In this document: in pieces, positions 2,840 to 27,760 of the stretch
Position numbering within the stretch: the first letter of the stretch is position 1
How the letters are laid out: each line of letters begins with the position of its first letter
Assembly (NCBI GenBank): GCA_003221295.1
Contig: QHRA01000175.1
Location: forward strand, 1-41,308
Source: Verrucomicrobiota bacterium
Lineage (GTDB): Bacteria > Verrucomicrobiota > Verrucomicrobiia > Chthoniobacterales > UBA10450
Direction of reading: 5' to 3'
DNA: 41,308 nt
Program-made: the position numbers and the translations under genes
Notes under the pieces: model-generated
Database searches by the model: none
Seen by the model: the letters and a program-made list of their open reading frames with translations, nothing else
Told to the model about the DNA's origin: nothing

Positions 2840-5800
2840 ATGCCTGAACTGAGCAAGGAAGAGAAACTGCGACTCTTAACTATTCTGCTTGAGAGCAGGC
2901 ATGGTGACCTGCGCGAGCAAAATCTCAATCGCCAGGGCAAAGGTCACTTTCACGTTTCTGGGATGGGCCACGAAGCGCTCGCTGCCATTTCCATTCAAAT
3001 GCAGGAGAATGATTACATTGTTCCCTTCTACCGCGATCGCGCACTGGTACTCGGTCGTGGAGTCAGCTCGCGACAGCTGGCCATTGATTATTTCGCGAAG
3101 GCCAAAGGCGAAAGCCACGGACGGCAAATGCCGTCGCATTACAGCTGCGCAGAAAAACACATCTGGAGTGTGCCGACCCCAACTGGTTCACAACTTCTGC
3201 CGGCGTGCGGGATAGCGTGGGGAATCAAACTGGATGGGAAAAATGCTGTTGTGGTCGCAACCGTTGGCGATGCTGCAACTCGGCAAGGCGATTTTTACGA
3301 AGCTATTTGTTTCGCGAAAGAAAAGAAATTGCCGCTCTTGTTCGTCGTCGAGGACAACGGTTACGGCATCAGTAGTCCCACCCGCAAAATCAATCCCCGT
3401 GCGCTCGATGTGGTGCAGCCGAATGATTGGCGCGAACTCGACGGCGCCAACGTTGGAGAAACGTATGAGGAAGCCGCGAAAGCTTTCGCGCACATTCGCG
3501 CCGGAAAAGGACCGGTTTTTTTCTGGGCGATGATGGAACGGCTGTCCAGTCACACCAGCTCCGACGACCAGAAGCTTTATCGCAGTGCGGAAGAGCTGAA
3601 AAGATGTGCCGAATGCGATCCGCTAAAGAAATGGAAGGAACAATTGATTGCGGAAGGACTGATCAGCGAATCCGATTACGCCAATCTCGACAACGAAATC
3701 AAAGAACGGATTCGCCGCGAATTTTCGGATGCGGAAAAAGAGCAGGACCCGTCAGCTGACGAACTCTTCAACGAGGTCACAGGAAAATTCCCAGAATTGA
3801 ACGACGAAGTTTTGCCGTCAGGAAAATATCGCATTGGCGATACCATTAACAAAACGTTGCGGCTCGGTCTCGAGCGCGACAAACGTCGAATCATTTTTGG
3901 GGAAGACATTGAAGACCCGAAAGGCGGCGTCTTTCGGCTGACGCAGAAACTTTCGACCGAATTCCCGGATCAGGTTTTCAATTCGCCGCTGGCGGAGTCG
4001 ACCATTCTTGGTGTCGCGTGTGGCCTTGGTTCTTACGGCAAGCGCCCCGTTTTCGAATTACAGTTCATCGACTTCATCGGGCCCGGTTGGAACCAACTGG
4101 TGACCAACATCTGCTGTCTGCGCTGGCGTTCATTTGGCCAGTGGAAATGTCCGATGGTGATTTATGCGCCTTACGGTGCGTATCTGCCGGGCGGAAGTCT
4201 ATGGCACAGCCAGGCAAACGAAGCAGCGCTGGCGCATTATCCGGGCCTTTCGGTGGTGATTCCATCCACGCCGGAAGATGCCGCAGGATTGTTGTGGACC
4301 GCGATGCACTGCGAGGATCCGGTCCTTTTTTTGATTCCAAAACACATGTTCTGGGCGGAACGCGAAAGCGCGGAAGCGATTCGCGCGGTCCCGCTTGGGA
4401 AAGCACGCAAACGCCAGGCTGGATCGAACGTGACGCTGATTACCTGGGGCAACACGGTGGAGAAGGCGCTCGAAGCAATTCAACAAATCGAAAATGAAGC
4501 GAGTATCGAATTGATTGATCTGCGTTCGATTTCCCCATGGGACCGCGAGACAGTCGAGGAATCGGTGCGAAAAACTGGACGGGTTATCATTATCCAGGAA
4601 GACACCGAAAACTGTAGTGTGGGGCAGATGATCATCGCGCATCTGATGTCGCAAACCGATCTTTGGAGCAAGATAGTTAGTCCCCCAATTCTCGTTAGCA
4701 AAGGCAACGTCATGATTGGTTACAACCCGATTTACGAGTACGCCGCGTTGCCTGATATTCAGAGAATCGTGGCTGCCATTCGAAAATCGATTTCGACAAA
4801 GGAACTGCGCGCTGTAGGGGCAGCCGTGTCGGCTGCAGAATCGGACGACGGCGGGCGACGCGCCCGCCCCTACAGCGGCCGAGAGCCGCAGCCGCGGCCG
4901 GCGACCGCGGCTACAAATACGCAAAGCATCACCGTGCCAATCATGGGCGAAGGAATTCGCTCGGCCAAAGTCGTGGCATTGCTGAAGAAGCCGGGAGATC
5001 CCATTGAATTGGACGACGCACTTTGCGAAGTTGAAACCGACAAAGCGGTTTATCCGATTGAATCGTCGTTCGCTGGAACAATGGGCCAATGGAAAGTCGA
5101 AGTCGGCGCCACGGTGGAGATCGGTCAGGAACTGGGAACTATTTTAACGGAATCTGCTGATCAAGTCGAGGCGACGCCGAGGGAATCTGTAGCCGCGGTC
5201 GCTGGCCGCGGCCTGACTCCGGAAAAGCCGCGGCCAGCGACCGCGGCTACAACAAGAGATCCTGCGCTTTCCCCGACCATCACCCGCAAACTCAGCCGCG
5301 TCATTCCCGCCAACCTGCAAATCGACGCGCGCTGGGATGCTATTCGCAAGGTGCGCGACGTGGCGAAAAAGAAAAACGACCGCAACGCGCCCTCGCCATC
5401 GGTTATGATGGCGTGGGCGGTTGTGCGCGCGATGGAAAAACATGCGCCGTTTCGTCGTTTGGTTTTGGAGGATGAGACAATTGTCGAAAACGAAAATTTC
5501 GACCTCGGTATTGCGGTAGCGATCGAAGGCGATCGCCTTGCCACCGCCGTCATCACGGAAGCGAACCGAAAAAGTTGGGCTGAATTCGCCGAGATTTATC
5601 GCAAGACTGTCGATGAGACTCGCGCCGGACGCGTTGATGCGATGAATGCCCCTGTTGTCATCAGCAGTCTCGGCGCCTTTGGCGTGCGGGCGGCAGCACC
5701 GATCGTCGTGCCACCTTCAGTCGGGACGCTCTTCATCGGCTCAGCTCATCGTGAAATGTTGCGCAACGGAAGGAAAAACGAAACGGCGGAGGTGATCACG

Positions 5801-5926
5801 CTTTCCCTCACCTTCGATCATCGGGTCGTGAACGGTGCTGGTGCTGCCAATTTCGCGCACGAAATCAAAGAGCAAATCGAGCAGTTCAAGATTCCGGCGG
5901 CGGAAACGCGCGCCGCCAAATCGTAG
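2840..5926 (+). CDS. Fused 2-oxoacid dehydrogenase: E1alpha - E1beta - lipoyl domain - E2 acyltransferase (branched-chain or pyruvate type)
   Basis: One ORF: E1alpha TPP region (VATVGDAATRQGDFYEAICFA...VVEDNGYGIS), E1beta (FGEDIEDPKGGVFRLTQKL...NSPLAESTILGVACGLG), lipoyl motif (VETDKAVYPIES), E2 catalytic motif (LTFDHRVVNGAGAANF). Confidence 0.92.
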   Translation: MPELSKEEKLRLLTILLESRHGDLREQNLNRQGKGHFHVSGMGHEALAAISIQMQENDYIVPFYRDRALVLGRGVSSRQLAIDYFAKAKGESHGRQMPSHYSCAEKHIWSVPTPTGSQLLPACGIAWGIKLDGKNAVVVATVGDAATRQGDFYEAICFAKEKKLPLLFVVEDNGYGISSPTRKINPRALDVVQPNDWRELDGANVGETYEEAAKAFAHIRAGKGPVFFWAMMERLSSHTSSDDQKLYRSAEELKRCAECDPLKKWKEQLIAEGLISESDYANLDNEIKERIRREFSDAEKEQDPSADELFNEVTGKFPELNDEVLPSGKYRIGDTINKTLRLGLERDKRRIIFGEDIEDPKGGVFRLTQKLSTEFPDQVFNSPLAESTILGVACGLGSYGKRPVFELQFIDFIGPGWNQLVTNICCLRWRSFGQWKCPMVIYAPYGAYLPGGSLWHSQANEAALAHYPGLSVVIPSTPEDAAGLLWTAMHCEDPVLFLIPKHMFWAERESAEAIRAVPLGKARKRQAGSNVTLITWGNTVEKALEAIQQIENEASIELIDLRSISPWDRETVEESVRKTGRVIIIQEDTENCSVGQMIIAHLMSQTDLWSKIVSPPILVSKGNVMIGYNPIYEYAALPDIQRIVAAIRKSISTKELRAVGAAVSAAESDDGGRRARPYSGREPQPRPATAATNTQSITVPIMGEGIRSAKVVALLKKPGDPIELDDALCEVETDKAVYPIESSFAGTMGQWKVEVGATVEIGQELGTILTESADQVEATPRESVAAVAGRGLTPEKPRPATAATTRDPALSPTITRKLSRVIPANLQIDARWDAIRKVRDVAKKKNDRNAPSPSVMMAWAVVRAMEKHAPFRRLVLEDETIVENENFDLGIAVAIEGDRLATAVITEANRKSWAEFAEIYRKTVDETRAGRVDAMNAPVVISSLGAFGVRAAAPIVVPPSVGTLFIGSAHREMLRNGRKNETAEVITLSLTFDHRVVNGAGAANFAHEIKEQIEQFKIPAAETRAAKS
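4813..4874. repeat. Palindromic element, three-way-junction type, in frame inside the E1-E2 fusion gene
   Basis: Outer stem TGTAGGGGC/GCCCCTACA; inner hairpins GCAGCCG-tgt-CGGCTGC and GCGGGCG-acg-CGCCCGC. Confidence 0.85.
4891..4915. repeat. Solo arm of the TGTAGCCGCGG palindrome family, in frame inside the E1-E2 fusion gene
   Basis: GCCGCGGCCGGCGACCGCGGCTACA; exact reverse complement of the arm at 26921-26945. Confidence 0.85.
5188..5251. repeat. TGTAGCCGCGG palindrome, full copy, in frame inside the E1-E2 fusion gene
   Basis: Perfect 25-bp arms TGTAGCCGCGGTCGCTGGCCGCGGC (5188-5212) and GCCGCGGCCAGCGACCGCGGCTACA (5227-5251), 14-nt loop. Confidence 0.95.
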
Positions 5927-5976: not shown

Positions 5977-6741
5977 TTACAGCGCCCAATTTGGCTTCCG
6001 CTTCTCGTTGAAGGCGGTAATGCCTTCACGCGCTTCGGTCGATCCACGCGCCTGCATATGATGCTTCAATGCTCGCTCGAGATCGTCTTTTACTGAGGTC
6101 GACCAAAGCTCTTCAATCATCCGTTTCGTCTGCAGGACCGCATTTGGCGCGCCTTGCAAAACAGAATCAGCGAACTTCAGCGCTTCATTCATTACCTCCT
6201 TCGCGGGCACGACACGATTCACTAAGCCCATTTCGAGAGCGCGTTTTGCATCAATCAGTTCCCCACCCAAAAGCAATTCGCGCATATCGCGTTCGCGCAG
6301 TTGCCGGCGTAGGAAGGTCATGACCAACCCAGCGACGAGCCCGCGCCGCGTTTCCGGATAACCAATCTTCGTTCCTTCCGCGGCAACAACGTAGTCACAG
6401 GCCGACATAATGCCGGCGCCACCGGCAACCGCGGCTCCATGGACGGCCGCGATGGTTACTGGACGCGCCTCGTTGAGCGCGCCAAGCACGTGCGCAACCA
6501 AATCTGCAGTCGCGTGCGCCTTGGTTTGATTCTGCGCTTCCTTCAAATCCAAACCAGTACAGAATGCCGCTCCCGCGCCACTCAAAATAAGAATGCGCTC
6601 CCTTATCTCGTCCGAGGCAAGTTTGATCGACGCGATCAGCTCGGTCAGCAGCTGGATCGATAACGCGTTACGGCGTTCGGGGCGGTTCAGAGTTACGACG
6701 GTGATCTGCGGTGTTTTCTTTTCGACAAGAACGACAGGCAT
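5977..6741 (-). CDS. Enoyl-CoA hydratase/isomerase family protein (candidate methylglutaconyl-CoA hydratase)
   Basis: TLNRPERRNALS, GAGAAFCTGLDLKE, AAVHGAAVAGGAGIMSACDYVVA; start trimmed to the ATG at 6741 (MPVVLVEKK). Confidence 0.85.
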   Translation of the reverse strand: MPVVLVEKKTPQITVVTLNRPERRNALSIQLLTELIASIKLASDEIRERILILSGAGAAFCTGLDLKEAQNQTKAHATADLVAHVLGALNEARPVTIAAVHGAAVAGGAGIMSACDYVVAAEGTKIGYPETRRGLVAGLVMTFLRRQLRERDMRELLLGGELIDAKRALEMGLVNRVVPAKEVMNEALKFADSVLQGAPNAVLQTKRMIEELWSTSVKDDLERALKHHMQARGSTEAREGITAFNEKRKPNWAL

Positions 6742-6811
6742 GGGACGCTTTTCCTGGTTGCAGCGCGGCAAACGTCGCACTTTCGACTTAATCTGCTAGT
6801 AACTTTCCGCG

Positions 6812-7696
6812 ATGGAATCCATCAAGCTCATCGAGTGTCCACGAGACGCGTGGCAGGGTCTCCCCGGTCAGATTCCGACCGAGCGAAAGGCGGAATATTT
6901 GCGCGGCCTGGTGGCGGCAGGCTTCCGACATATTGATGCAGTAAGTTTCGTCTCGCCGAAAGCTGTGCCGCAGATGGCTGACAGTGAGAAGGTTCTCGAG
7001 CAACTTGGGCCGCTCGAGGAGGTTGAGATCATCGGCATTGTTGTGAACGAAAGAGGCGCGGAGCGCGCGATCGCGACCGGGGCGGTAAGCACGCTGGGCT
7101 ATCCGTGTTCAATCTCGAAGACGTTTCTGCGCAGAAACCAAAATCAATCGCCGGAGCAGAACGAAGAGCTGTTGAAGAAAATTCGCAAGCAGGCAGACGA
7201 AGCTGGTCTGGCAATGGTTGCCTACATTTCAATGGCTTTTGGGAATCCTTATGGCGATCCATGGAGCGAAGACAAAGTCGCGCAGGCCGCCGAAACCATC
7301 GTGGGTCTTGGTATTCGTTCCGTCTCAATCGCCGACACGGTGGGAGCAGCGGATCCGGCGCTGGTTCATCGCGTGGTGGCGGCGGTCGTGCGCGAATGTC
7401 CTGAATGTGAAATGGGCATCCATATGCATAGCACGCGCGCAGAAGCAGTGACGAAAGTGCTGGCTGCGTACGACGCTGGATGCCGGCGTTTCGATTCCGC
7501 CATTGGCGGGCTTGGCGGTTGCCCCTTCGCGCAAGATAAATTGGTCGGGAATATCCCGACGGAAGAAGTCTTGCGTGCATTGCAACAGCGCGGCCTGACA
7601 CTCCCGGTAAATGGGCGATTCACCAAAGTCGTGGCGCTGAATGCCGCCATCAGCGGCGAATTTTCAACTAACGAAATATCGGGCAATCAAACTTGA
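6812..7696 (+). CDS. Hydroxymethylglutaryl-CoA lyase
   Basis: IKLIECPRDAWQGLPGQIPTERKAEYLRGLVAAGF; DTVGAADPALVHRVV; GIHMHSTR; GGLGGCPFA signature. Confidence 0.92.
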   Translation: MESIKLIECPRDAWQGLPGQIPTERKAEYLRGLVAAGFRHIDAVSFVSPKAVPQMADSEKVLEQLGPLEEVEIIGIVVNERGAERAIATGAVSTLGYPCSISKTFLRRNQNQSPEQNEELLKKIRKQADEAGLAMVAYISMAFGNPYGDPWSEDKVAQAAETIVGLGIRSVSIADTVGAADPALVHRVVAAVVRECPECEMGIHMHSTRAEAVTKVLAAYDAGCRRFDSAIGGLGGCPFAQDKLVGNIPTEEVLRALQQRGLTLPVNGRFTKVVALNAAISGEFSTNEISGNQT

Positions 7697-9306
7697 ATCA
7701 CGCCGGTGTGGAAGCGCCCTTTCGCGGGCGGACGGCTAACATAGGAGAGAAGGCGGATGAGGACGTCACGCGTTTCATGAGGTTGGATGATGGCATCGAT
7801 CCAGCCCCGCGCCGCGCCATAACGAATGTCGGTTTGCTCTTCGTAGCTTGCCTTCACTTTGGCGCGCAATTCTTCGAGCTCCTCCGGCGCGGCTTTTTTA
7901 TCTCCGCGTTCTTTCGCGCGAGCGAGAATGGAAAAAACAGTATCGCTGGCCTGCGCCGCACCCATCACGGCGTAGCGTGCGTTTGGCCAAGCAAGGATAA
8001 AACGCGGGTCGTAAGCTTTGCCGCAGAGCGCGTAATTCCCGGCACCAAACGAGCCACCGACCACGATCGTGATTTTCGGCACGATTGAATTACTGACCGC
8101 ATTTACCAACTTCGCCCCGCTGCGGATGATTCCACTTTGTTCCGCAGCTTTTCCGACCATGAATCCGGTCACATCCTGGAAAAAAAGAATCGGGAGCCCG
8201 ACCTGATTACAATCCATGACAAAGCGTGCGGCTTTGTCGGCGCTGTCCGAATAAATGACGCCACCCATTTGGATCCCTTCCGTCTTGGTGCGCACTTGCA
8301 GACGCTGGCTGGCGACGATGCCGACCGCACGACCGCCGATTCGCGCATAAGCTGTTACCAAAGTCTTGCCGTAATCAGCTTTGTATTCATCGAGCGAATC
8401 GGCGTCGATGATAGTGGCAAGTAAATCGCGCGCATCATAATTCTTGTGACCATCCAGGCTGATTAAATCGTAGACGGCATCACCTGGTTTCGCGGCGTCC
8501 TTGACGCCGGGCATTGCACATTTCTCGTTAGCCTCCGGCAGCAACTTCAGCAACGAACGCACTTTTTCCAGACACGTTTCATCGTTCTTTTCGAAAAAAT
8601 CGACCGTACCACTGATCTCGGAATGCATTTTCGCGCCGCCGAGTTCTTCCTGATCGACGATTTGCCCAATGGCGGCTTTGACCAGCGAAGGGCCGGCAAG
8701 GTAAAGCCCGCTGCCCTCGGTCATTAAAATCTTGTCGCACAACACCGGCAAATAAGCTCCGCCGGCCACACAATTGCCCATGATGGCGGCGAACTGCGGA
8801 ATGCCAGCCGCGGAAATGACCGAATTATTTCGAAAGATGCGCCCGAAATCGTCCTCATCTGGAAAGATTTCGTCCTGCATCGGCAGAAATACGCCGGCGG
8901 AATCGACCAGATAGATCAGTGGCAAATTGTTTTCGAATGCGATCCGTTGCGCGCGAATTAATTTCTTTGCCGTCTGCGGGAAGAATGCCCCAGCTTTCAC
9001 GGTAGCGTCATTGGCGACGATCATGCACGGCACGTTGGCAACGTTGCCAATGCCGACGACGGCACCGGCAGCCGGGACCCGTCCCCACTGCTCGTACATT
9101 TTGTAGGCGGCCCAAAGTCCGATCTCGAAAAAGTGCGCGTCGGTATCGAGCAAACGTGCGATGCGCTCGCGCGCGACCAGACGTCCGAGCTTATGCTGGC
9201 GTTCCTGGCCAGCTTTGCCACCGCCTTCGCGCAACTGCTCTTCTTCCGCGCGAATTTTGCCGCAGCGGTCACGTATCGTTTCGGCTCTGGCGGTTCGTGA
9301 GGACAT
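7687..9306 (-). CDS. Acyl-CoA carboxylase carboxyltransferase (beta) subunit, probable methylcrotonyl-CoA carboxylase beta
   Basis: GKAGQERQHKLGRLVARERIARLLD; NVPCMIVANDATVKAGAFFPQTAKK; MAGVKDAAKP/GGSFGAGNYALCGKAYDPRF; in HMG-CoA lyase/enoyl-CoA hydratase context. Confidence 0.9.
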   Translation of the reverse strand: MSSRTARAETIRDRCGKIRAEEEQLREGGGKAGQERQHKLGRLVARERIARLLDTDAHFFEIGLWAAYKMYEQWGRVPAAGAVVGIGNVANVPCMIVANDATVKAGAFFPQTAKKLIRAQRIAFENNLPLIYLVDSAGVFLPMQDEIFPDEDDFGRIFRNNSVISAAGIPQFAAIMGNCVAGGAYLPVLCDKILMTEGSGLYLAGPSLVKAAIGQIVDQEELGGAKMHSEISGTVDFFEKNDETCLEKVRSLLKLLPEANEKCAMPGVKDAAKPGDAVYDLISLDGHKNYDARDLLATIIDADSLDEYKADYGKTLVTAYARIGGRAVGIVASQRLQVRTKTEGIQMGGVIYSDSADKAARFVMDCNQVGLPILFFQDVTGFMVGKAAEQSGIIRSGAKLVNAVSNSIVPKITIVVGGSFGAGNYALCGKAYDPRFILAWPNARYAVMGAAQASDTVFSILARAKERGDKKAAPEELEELRAKVKASYEEQTDIRYGAARGWIDAIIQPHETRDVLIRLLSYVSRPPAKGRFHTGVIQV

Positions 9307-26707: not shown

Positions 26708-27760
26708 TTAGGGAGCGGTCCCGGTCGATGCGCGTTCTAATCGGTCGTTAATCGCCGCGCCAATCCCCTCCTCCGGAACACGTTCGGCCACAATGAGATC
26801 GAGATCTTGCGCGTCCAGTTCGCGCAGCATTCCAAAGAAATTCGCCGCGGCTTCGCGTAGATCGCTTCGCTCACTTAAGTAACGTATCACCGTGAACCCT
26901 ATGAACTTGGCCGGTGCGCTTGTAGCCGCGGTCGCCGGCCGCGGCTTCGGTTTCGAACTCTGATAACTTACGGGGCCGCGGCCAGCGACCGCGGCTACAG
27001 ACGGAAAGCAAAGCGCACCGATTCGTTTGCCGGCTGGTGGCGAGAAATTCTTCAAATCATCAACCACGATCAATTTCGTTCGGGGCGCGTAGTGTGTCGG
27101 CAATTGCCCGGGCGCGCTAACAGGGGCCGATGATGTTTGTTCACGAACTTCAGCAAATGGACGAAGCATCTCGTTCGTGATCGGCCCGCGCCGCAATACC
27201 TCAATCACGCCATTTGTAATTTGAATAATGGTCGATTCGATTCCGTGCTCCGTCGCACCGCCATCAACAATCAGCGGAATACGGCCGCTTAACTCATCGA
27301 ACACGTGTTGCGCCGTTGTTGGGCTGATACGCCCGAACCGATTCGCGCTCGGCGCCGCCAGCGGGCGATTCAGCGTCCTGACCACTTCGCGGAAAACCCG
27401 ATGCGCGCTCATTCGCACCGCCACCGTTTGCAAACCCGCCGTGACAATGTCCGGAACAATTTCGTGCTTCGGAAAAATAATCGTCAACGGCCCGGGCCAG
27501 AATTTTTCCATTAACTTGTGTGCGGCTTGCGATCCAATAATCGCGATCTCGTCCAGCGCCTCCTGATTTGGCAAATGTACAATCAGCGGGTCAAAGCGCG
27601 GACGTTCTTTTGCCTCGAAAATTTTGGCGACCGCATCTGGATTGAGAGCGTCGGCCGCCAGTCCGTAAACCGTCTCAGTCGGGAGAGCGACCACTTCGCC
27701 GTCCCGCAAAAGCCTGATCGCTTTCGCGCACTCATGCGCGGAAACGATTTCCGTTTTCAC
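26708..27760 (-). CDS. L-threonylcarbamoyladenylate synthase (Sua5/YrdC with C-terminal Sua5 domain)
   Basis: [70 protein letters not shown] linker. Confidence 0.93.
26921..26999. repeat. TGTAGCCGCGG palindrome, full copy, in frame inside the Sua5/YrdC gene
   Basis: Arms 26921-26945 and 26975-26999 complementary over 25 bp with one mismatch, 29-nt loop. Confidence 0.95.

Follow-up and report, generated by a model that had tools for sequence, protein, structure and literature searches.

Architecture of 2-oxoacid dehydrogenases and of a verrucomicrobial fusion

The 2-oxoacid dehydrogenase complexes are multienzyme machines whose components are joined through docking mediated by a peripheral-subunit-binding domain (PSBD), which is present in the E2 of the classical branched-chain 2-oxoacid dehydrogenase (BCKDH) and which in many complexes recruits E3 as well as E1. 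In the three-gene form of BCKDH (bkdA1-bkdA2-bkdB; Thermus 1um9, Pseudomonas 1qs0, human BCKDH), E1alpha, E1beta and E2 are separate proteins, and in the three-gene set on a plasmid of Rhizobium sp. C104 lpdA lies directly behind. A different plan is found in the actinobacterial OdhA/KGD, where E1 and E2 activities lie on one chain with no PSBD between them; OdhA is a homohexamer in which three dimers of E1 are combined with two trimers of E2 (PMC10415282). Here we describe a gene from a Verrucomicrobiota bacterium, located on contig QHRA01000175.1 of assembly GCA_003221295.1 (41,308 nucleotides, analysed at full length and termed “the window” below), in which one open reading frame encodes E1alpha, E1beta, a lipoyl domain and E2, so that two of the three working parts and the swinging arm are packed into one protein without a docking domain. 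By homology and gene context, it is probably a one-polypeptide E1-E2 of the heterotetramer-type 2-oxoacid dehydrogenases, with branched-chain 2-oxoacids as the most likely substrates.

The fusion follows the activity order of the three-gene BCKDH and has homologous E1alpha and E1beta parts, yet on a single chain. It resembles OdhA/KGD in its single chain, in the missing PSBD and in an E2 C-terminal sequence that differs from that of the canonical knob and has a conserved Phe (PMC10415282). However, OdhA/KGD places an E2o domain N-terminal to a homodimeric-type E1o, acts on 2-oxoglutarate and carries no lipoyl domain in cis, whereas the verrucomicrobial fusion runs in the opposite order, is built on an E1 of the E1alpha/E1beta type, has its own lipoyl domain and is read as acting on branched-chain 2-oxoacids.

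Domain order and catalytic residues

Pfam matches in the 1028-aa product follow from N- to C-terminus as E1_dh (aa 23-305, 1.9e-48), Transket_pyr (aa 334-502, 2.5e-26), Transketolase_C (aa 520-604, 5e-24), Biotin_lipoyl (PF00364; aa 696-768, 9.9e-16) and 2-oxoacid_dh (aa 821-1016, 6.8e-34, without the first 26 profile positions). This order bears out what an earlier sequence-only reading of this DNA had claimed, namely a single-polypeptide E1alpha-E1beta-lipoyl-E2 enzyme that differs from actinobacterial KGD in order and in E1 type (Table 1). All three E1 domains are present, with the conserved thiamine diphosphate (ThDP)/Mg and active-site residues of a heterotetramer-type E1, although the alpha and beta parts share one chain, unlike the separate chains of that type. 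Among 37 aligned homologues, H44, N173, H238, H456, K735, H994 and Asn998 are invariant, and the GDG Asp is conserved in 29 and replaced by Glu in 8. We take the HTSSDD loop that bears His238 (SSHTSSDDQKLYR) to be BCKDH-like. The lipoylatable lysine of the ETDKA motif (K735) is thus kept in 37/37 homologues, lipoylation itself being predicted, and the E2 active-site motif reads DH(R/K)xxNG throughout, with His and Asn each in 37/37. We also considered that Asn in place of the Asp of DHRxxDG might mean lost activity, and rejected this, as the A. vinelandii E2p also has Asn (titles of PDB 1dpb and 1dpc).

PDB sequences from Pyrobaculum, Thermus, Geobacillus, Pseudomonas and human align to the E1beta and E1alpha parts, and PDB E2 sequences cover the E2 part. 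A full-length AlphaFold2 (AF2) model built on the 37-row alignment (mean pLDDT 81.8) finds its best structural matches in E1beta chains, the first being Thermus BCKDH E1beta, which is also the second-best PDB sequence match to the fusion.

Distribution among relatives

Across the class, copies of this architecture at 44-92% identity are found in the majority of genomes of the window's family and also in members of nine further families. The near-relative survey covered 58 genomes from the same genus, family and order. Of the 37 genomes from the window's own genus or family (f1), most hold the fusion, either full length (~70-92% identity) or cut by a contig end, and no strong match was found in the f1 members G002, G004, G005, G032 and G036; a genome of another family, G039, carries it at 55% identity. 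In broader samples the fusion was found in 28 of 388 genomes of the phylum and in 44 of 384 genomes of the class (44-75% identity apart from the query itself), the bearing families of the class being f1, f4, f14, f17, f21, f23, f28, f98, f103 and f106. Genomes assembled as one contig are among them (including G074, G176 and G326), and the fusion is a stable, lineage-wide architecture.

In a contig scan for the closest copies only close relatives matched, and the metagenome-assembled genomes (MAGs) that hold these copies appear to come from soil, judging from their sample-depth names. Among plasmids, only one record covers at least 80% of the query, with three separate genes and no fusion. The sequence-only reading had allowed that the architecture might prove already common and characterised; it is indeed common within one bacterial class, but no description of an E1-lipoyl-E2 fusion was found in the literature searched (subscription papers were outside the search, and absence is not proof).

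A variant is seen in genus g266 of family f103, where an E1alphabeta protein (~665 aa, ~50% identical) is followed by a free-standing lipoyl protein (~80 aa, with ETDKA) and no E2 catalytic domain was found at the three loci (L139-L141); this arrangement is a split or E2-less version.

The missing PSBD and the supply of E3

Where other E2s hold a PSBD between the lipoyl and catalytic domains, the fusion has none, as the sequence-only reading had supposed. At E<=1, Pfam E3_binding (PF02817) is absent from the fusion protein and from 37/37 fusion homologues, and the same profile detects the domain in both other E2s of the same genome, which served as positive control. Profile-profile comparison, which matches the PSBD of a third-type E2 with the canonical PSBD at a probability of 96.9% (E 1.5e-10), yields no match between the fused linker and the canonical PSBD (probability <1%). 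The AF2 model agrees, with pLDDT <50 at 657-691 and 773-802 marking two disordered linkers and with no helices from the lipoyl domain up to a short helix at the start of the E2 domain. The conserved sequence PALSPTITRKL, which precedes the E2 domain, was also considered as a degenerate PSBD, and this was rejected. Its likeness to the start of a PSBD is by eye only, its profile-profile match spans 12 columns (probability 2-3% against third-type PSBDs, <1% against canonical ones), and in the AF2 model it continues straight into an E2 strand.

That covalent fusion could make E1 docking unnecessary, as had been proposed from the sequence, is a sound inference from this anatomy. Unlike E1 docking, however, the holding of E3 is left unsolved by an E1-E2 fusion, a point on which the earlier reading was silent. 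No E3 gene was seen beside the fusion in the loci read, where neighbours were judged by their first residues and by comparison with the genes of the window. Bona fide E3 genes are encoded elsewhere in all eight good-quality genomes tested, which carry 2-3 normal E2s each besides the fusion, and in G020 and G022 the E3 gene adjoins that of a non-fused E2. The genome of the window is a 291-contig MAG, 87% complete and with 6% contamination. Its only E3-like flavoprotein scores best as Si-specific transhydrogenase, and no SucA (2-oxoglutarate dehydrogenase E1, TIGR00239) was found over cut-off. It has two further E2s with PSBDs away from the fusion. A canonical pyruvate dehydrogenase (PDH) operon lies on contig C234, and contig C26 carries another E1/E2 set that is likewise unfused. 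E3 would thus reach the fusion in trans. The E1beta of the third complex on C26 (L054:1710-2351) ends after ~214 aa where ~330 aa is normal, through a frameshift, decay or an assembly error.

Sister fusions with KAS III and related modules

A midpoint-rooted tree of E1alphabeta sequences, in which one outgroup row is long-branched, resolves the E1-lipoyl-E2 fusions as one clean clade and a set of fusions ending in 3-oxoacyl-ACP synthase III (KAS III) as another, both separate from the PDH E1s, with support of 100/99 for each clade and for their union. The E1alpha-E1beta-lipoyl-KAS III fusions (~1110-1170 aa) come from other lineages of the phylum and from family f22 of the class, and were confirmed in 14 of 15 loci, the fifteenth being cut by a contig end; they too have no description in the literature searched. 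They share with the E2 fusion a sister E1alphabeta module and the fused lipoyl domain, but their C-terminal domain is KAS III instead of E2. Given these two clean sister clades, the E1alphabeta-lipoyl module appears to have been joined to two alternative acyl acceptors. KAS III in this position would let the acyl-lipoyl prime fatty-acid (or other) synthesis directly, which suggests that a lipoyl arm can hand its acyl group straight to fatty-acid synthesis.

A further fused E1alphabeta is found in biosynthetic clusters on Streptomyces plasmids (L136:4965-9698, L137:3914-9944), where it adjoins a nonribosomal peptide synthetase/polyketide synthase (NRPS/PKS) gene. This single-chain protein (~670 aa) is 40-43% identical to the E1 half of the fusion, but in L136 it is the next gene, an NRPS/PKS gene, that begins with the lipoyl and E2-like domains and continues with acyl carrier protein and ketosynthase domains, as a lipoyl-fed loading module in which the acyl group probably goes to the carrier protein. 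A precedent is the BCDH domain listed in the virginiamycin M paper (PMC10006238).

Proposed mechanism and assembly

In the scheme that we infer for the fusion, from substrate and oligomer to E3 in trans and all kinetics, the E1alphabeta half would pair with that of a second chain to create two ThDP sites, where ThDP would decarboxylate the 2-oxoacid and acylate the lipoyl group on Lys735. Swinging on the disordered linkers at either side, the lipoyl domain would then reach the E2 half, where the trimeric active site with His994 would transfer the acyl group to CoA, and a free E3 encoded elsewhere would re-oxidise the dihydrolipoyl arm. Covalent linkage would here replace the PSBD-mediated docking of E1, and in the window's family the product would feed the neighbouring leucine-degradation genes.

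Modelled alone, the E2 half reaches a pLDDT of 90.3 and matches PDB E2 cores at TM ~0.8 (Foldseek), among them the Mycobacterium BCKDH E2 core (6zzn), described as cubic. Its N-terminus is shortened, according to the Pfam match and to alignment with canonical E2s, and its C-terminus ends in IEQFKIP, apparently without the canonical knob that makes trimer-trimer contacts in cubic and dodecahedral cores. Fusion homologues end in E-x-F-x-(I/L)-(P/V), with Phe at F1016 in 36/37, and in PDH- and 2-oxoglutarate dehydrogenase (ODH)-type E2s, both from this genome and from related ones, the usual ending is (N/D)PxxLL(V/F) or similar. A change at this end that includes a Phe stops trimer-trimer contact in OdhA and AceF of actinobacteria (PMC10415282). 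Because the apparently knobless C-terminus and the conserved Phe recall OdhA, a small hexamer-like assembly of ~0.68 MDa (chain 113 kDa) is plausible; with a dimer expected for E1 and a trimer for E2, the smallest closed assembly would be a hexamer. Our tentative picture of the whole, to which we give somewhat less than even odds, is a minimal, self-contained enzyme in which one chain type would form an OdhA-like hexamer of three E1 dimers and two E2 trimers, using its own lipoyl arms and no longer relying on the docking of E1 or on stable docking of E3. It would have converged with OdhA from another E1 class, as one branch of a module whose acceptor was swapped between E2 and KAS III.

Such an enzyme would join actinobacterial OdhA as an independent second case, and a class-wide fusion free of the PSBD probes whether stable docking of E1 and E3 on a giant core is needed at all. 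Expression and engineering would also be simple for an enzyme that is encoded by one gene and requires E3 alone.

Alternative explanations

Coming from a fragmented and partly contaminated MAG, the gene might be a sequencing or assembly artefact or a decayed gene, but dozens of independent genomes, some of them one-contig, share the full-length architecture with invariant catalytic residues; we rejected an assembly artefact, and the chance of either is negligible. More serious is a classical 24-subunit cubic E2 core of the same chemistry, with 12 E1 dimers around it (~2.7 MDa) and E3 held through an unrecognised site. The common fold of the E2 half and its match to the cubic 6zzn core agree with it, and the third-type E2s (L054, L113-L115) are also short at the C-terminus, which weakens the case for a non-cubic assembly. 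Still, the replaced tail and the shortened N-terminal arm speak against a cube, into whose geometry the covalently attached E1 dimers would need to fit, and we hold this core to be improbable. To a similar degree we doubt a mixed complex in which the fusion would borrow E3, and perhaps lipoyl arms, held at the PSBD of the cell's PDH or ODH E2, as has been proposed for OdhA. The lack of a PSBD in the fusion, the two PSBD-bearing E2s of the same genome, the E3 genes beside non-fused E2s in G020 and G022 and the mixed PDH-ODH complex proposed in actinobacteria (PMC10415282) all fit this arrangement, but the fusion, unlike OdhA, has its own lipoyl domain and needs none in trans.

Substrate and role are judged from gene neighbourhood and E1 similarity. 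Enzymes of the kind encoded beside the fusion act in leucine catabolism downstream of the branched-chain 2-oxoacid dehydrogenase product. The grouping of hydratase, hydroxymethylglutaryl-CoA-lyase-like and methylcrotonyl-CoA-carboxylase-beta-like genes recurs beside the fusion in family f1, and in G039 the order is hydratase, fusion, carboxyltransferase. Because such genes adjoin it in the window's family, branched-chain 2-oxoacid dehydrogenase is the best reading of the fusion, at moderate confidence. Several observations weigh against it: curated NCBIfam models of PDH E1 subunits and E2 match parts of the protein, well below their cut-offs; leucine-degradation neighbours do not surround the fusion in the genomes read from f14, f17, f21 and f23; a close carboxylase orthologue is absent from G423 and from the tested genomes of f14, f21 and f23 (G225 and G211 give carboxylase matches of only ~34%); and the unfused set on C26 could be the branched-chain enzyme instead. 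With differing neighbours and no carboxylase orthologue, the fusion may in such families supply branched acyl-CoA primers for fatty acids. A physiological role in supplying primers for iso/anteiso fatty acids, and not in degrading leucine, would suit the genomes read from f14, f21 and f23 and G423, which have neither leucine-degradation neighbours nor the orthologue, and also the sister clade, in which lipoyl-KAS III takes the position of E2 and would channel the same acyl group into fatty-acid synthesis. The leucine-degradation-type neighbours in the window's own family oppose it, and we consider it less likely than not.

Neighbouring genes and a dispersed repeat in the linkers

Table 1. Features of the fusion gene, its surroundings and related loci (positions in the window unless a locus is named)
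Feature	Position	Strand	Remarks
E1alpha-E1beta-lipoyl-E2 fusion gene	2840..5926	+	one open reading frame, 1028 aa, ~113 kDa; full length kept in relatives
E1alpha region, aa 1-318	2840..3793	+	Pfam E1_dh; GDA...DN ThDP/Mg region aa 143-173; His238 in SSHTSSDDQKLYR loop
E1beta region, aa 325-652	3812..4795	+	Transket_pyr and Transketolase_C; invariant His456
Linker 1, aa 655-691	4802..4912	+	AF2 disorder; length varies among relatives
Lipoyl domain, aa 693-770	4916..5149	+	Pfam; ETDKA, Lys735 at 5042-5044
Linker 2, aa 773-802, expected PSBD place	5156..5245	+	disordered; PSBD not detected
E2 acyltransferase catalytic domain, aa 806-1019	5255..5896	+	Pfam, AF2 and Foldseek, alignment with canonical E2s; DHRVVNG, His994 at 5819-5821, Asn998 at 5831-5833
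Repeat copy, linker 1	4891..4915	+	repeat scan
Repeat copy, linker 2, inverted	5188..5212	-	repeat scan
Repeat copy, linker 2	5227..5251	+	repeat scan
Enoyl-CoA hydratase family gene, methylglutaconyl-CoA hydratase candidate	5977..6780	-	conserved neighbour
Hydroxymethylglutaryl-CoA lyase-like gene	6812..7696	+	PRK05692, 210.7 bits, cut-off 246
Acyl-CoA carboxyltransferase, methylcrotonyl-CoA carboxylase beta-like	7687..9306	-	best NCBIfam match the mmdA carboxyltransferase model, well under cut-off
Further repeat site	26921-26999		
KAS III fusion loci	L082, L083, L121-L125, L127-L135; e.g. L083:28-3342	- (L083)	Pfam
g266 locus	L139:6902-9165	-	E1alphabeta and separate lipoyl protein
g266 locus	L140:2340-4600	-	E1alphabeta and separate lipoyl protein
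g266 locus	L141:903-3180	+	E1alphabeta and separate lipoyl protein

All three copies of a 25-base GC-rich repeat inside the fusion gene lie in the linkers (Table 1). The genome holds 50 copies at <=2 mismatches, against 0 for a reversed-pattern control, and copies are frequently arranged as inverted pairs. The sequence-only reading had described a repeat-encoded linker at the place of the PSBD, and the repeat is truly there, with two copies in linker 2, but it did not replace a PSBD. A scan of 21 fusion genes including the window's own (L025 and L032-L034 were not covered) found the repeat in the linkers alone, and only in L004-L007 and L015, with one weak 3-mismatch copy in L022. Most relatives have neither the repeat nor a PSBD; the repeat was therefore rejected as a cause of PSBD loss and is a late addition to a linker that already had no PSBD, that is, a recent in-frame insertion into tolerant linkers and not the origin of the architecture. 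The PDH E2 gene has a copy in its linker as well (G000:C234:19425-19449), and for this reason interdomain linkers of E2 proteins seem to tolerate the repeat.

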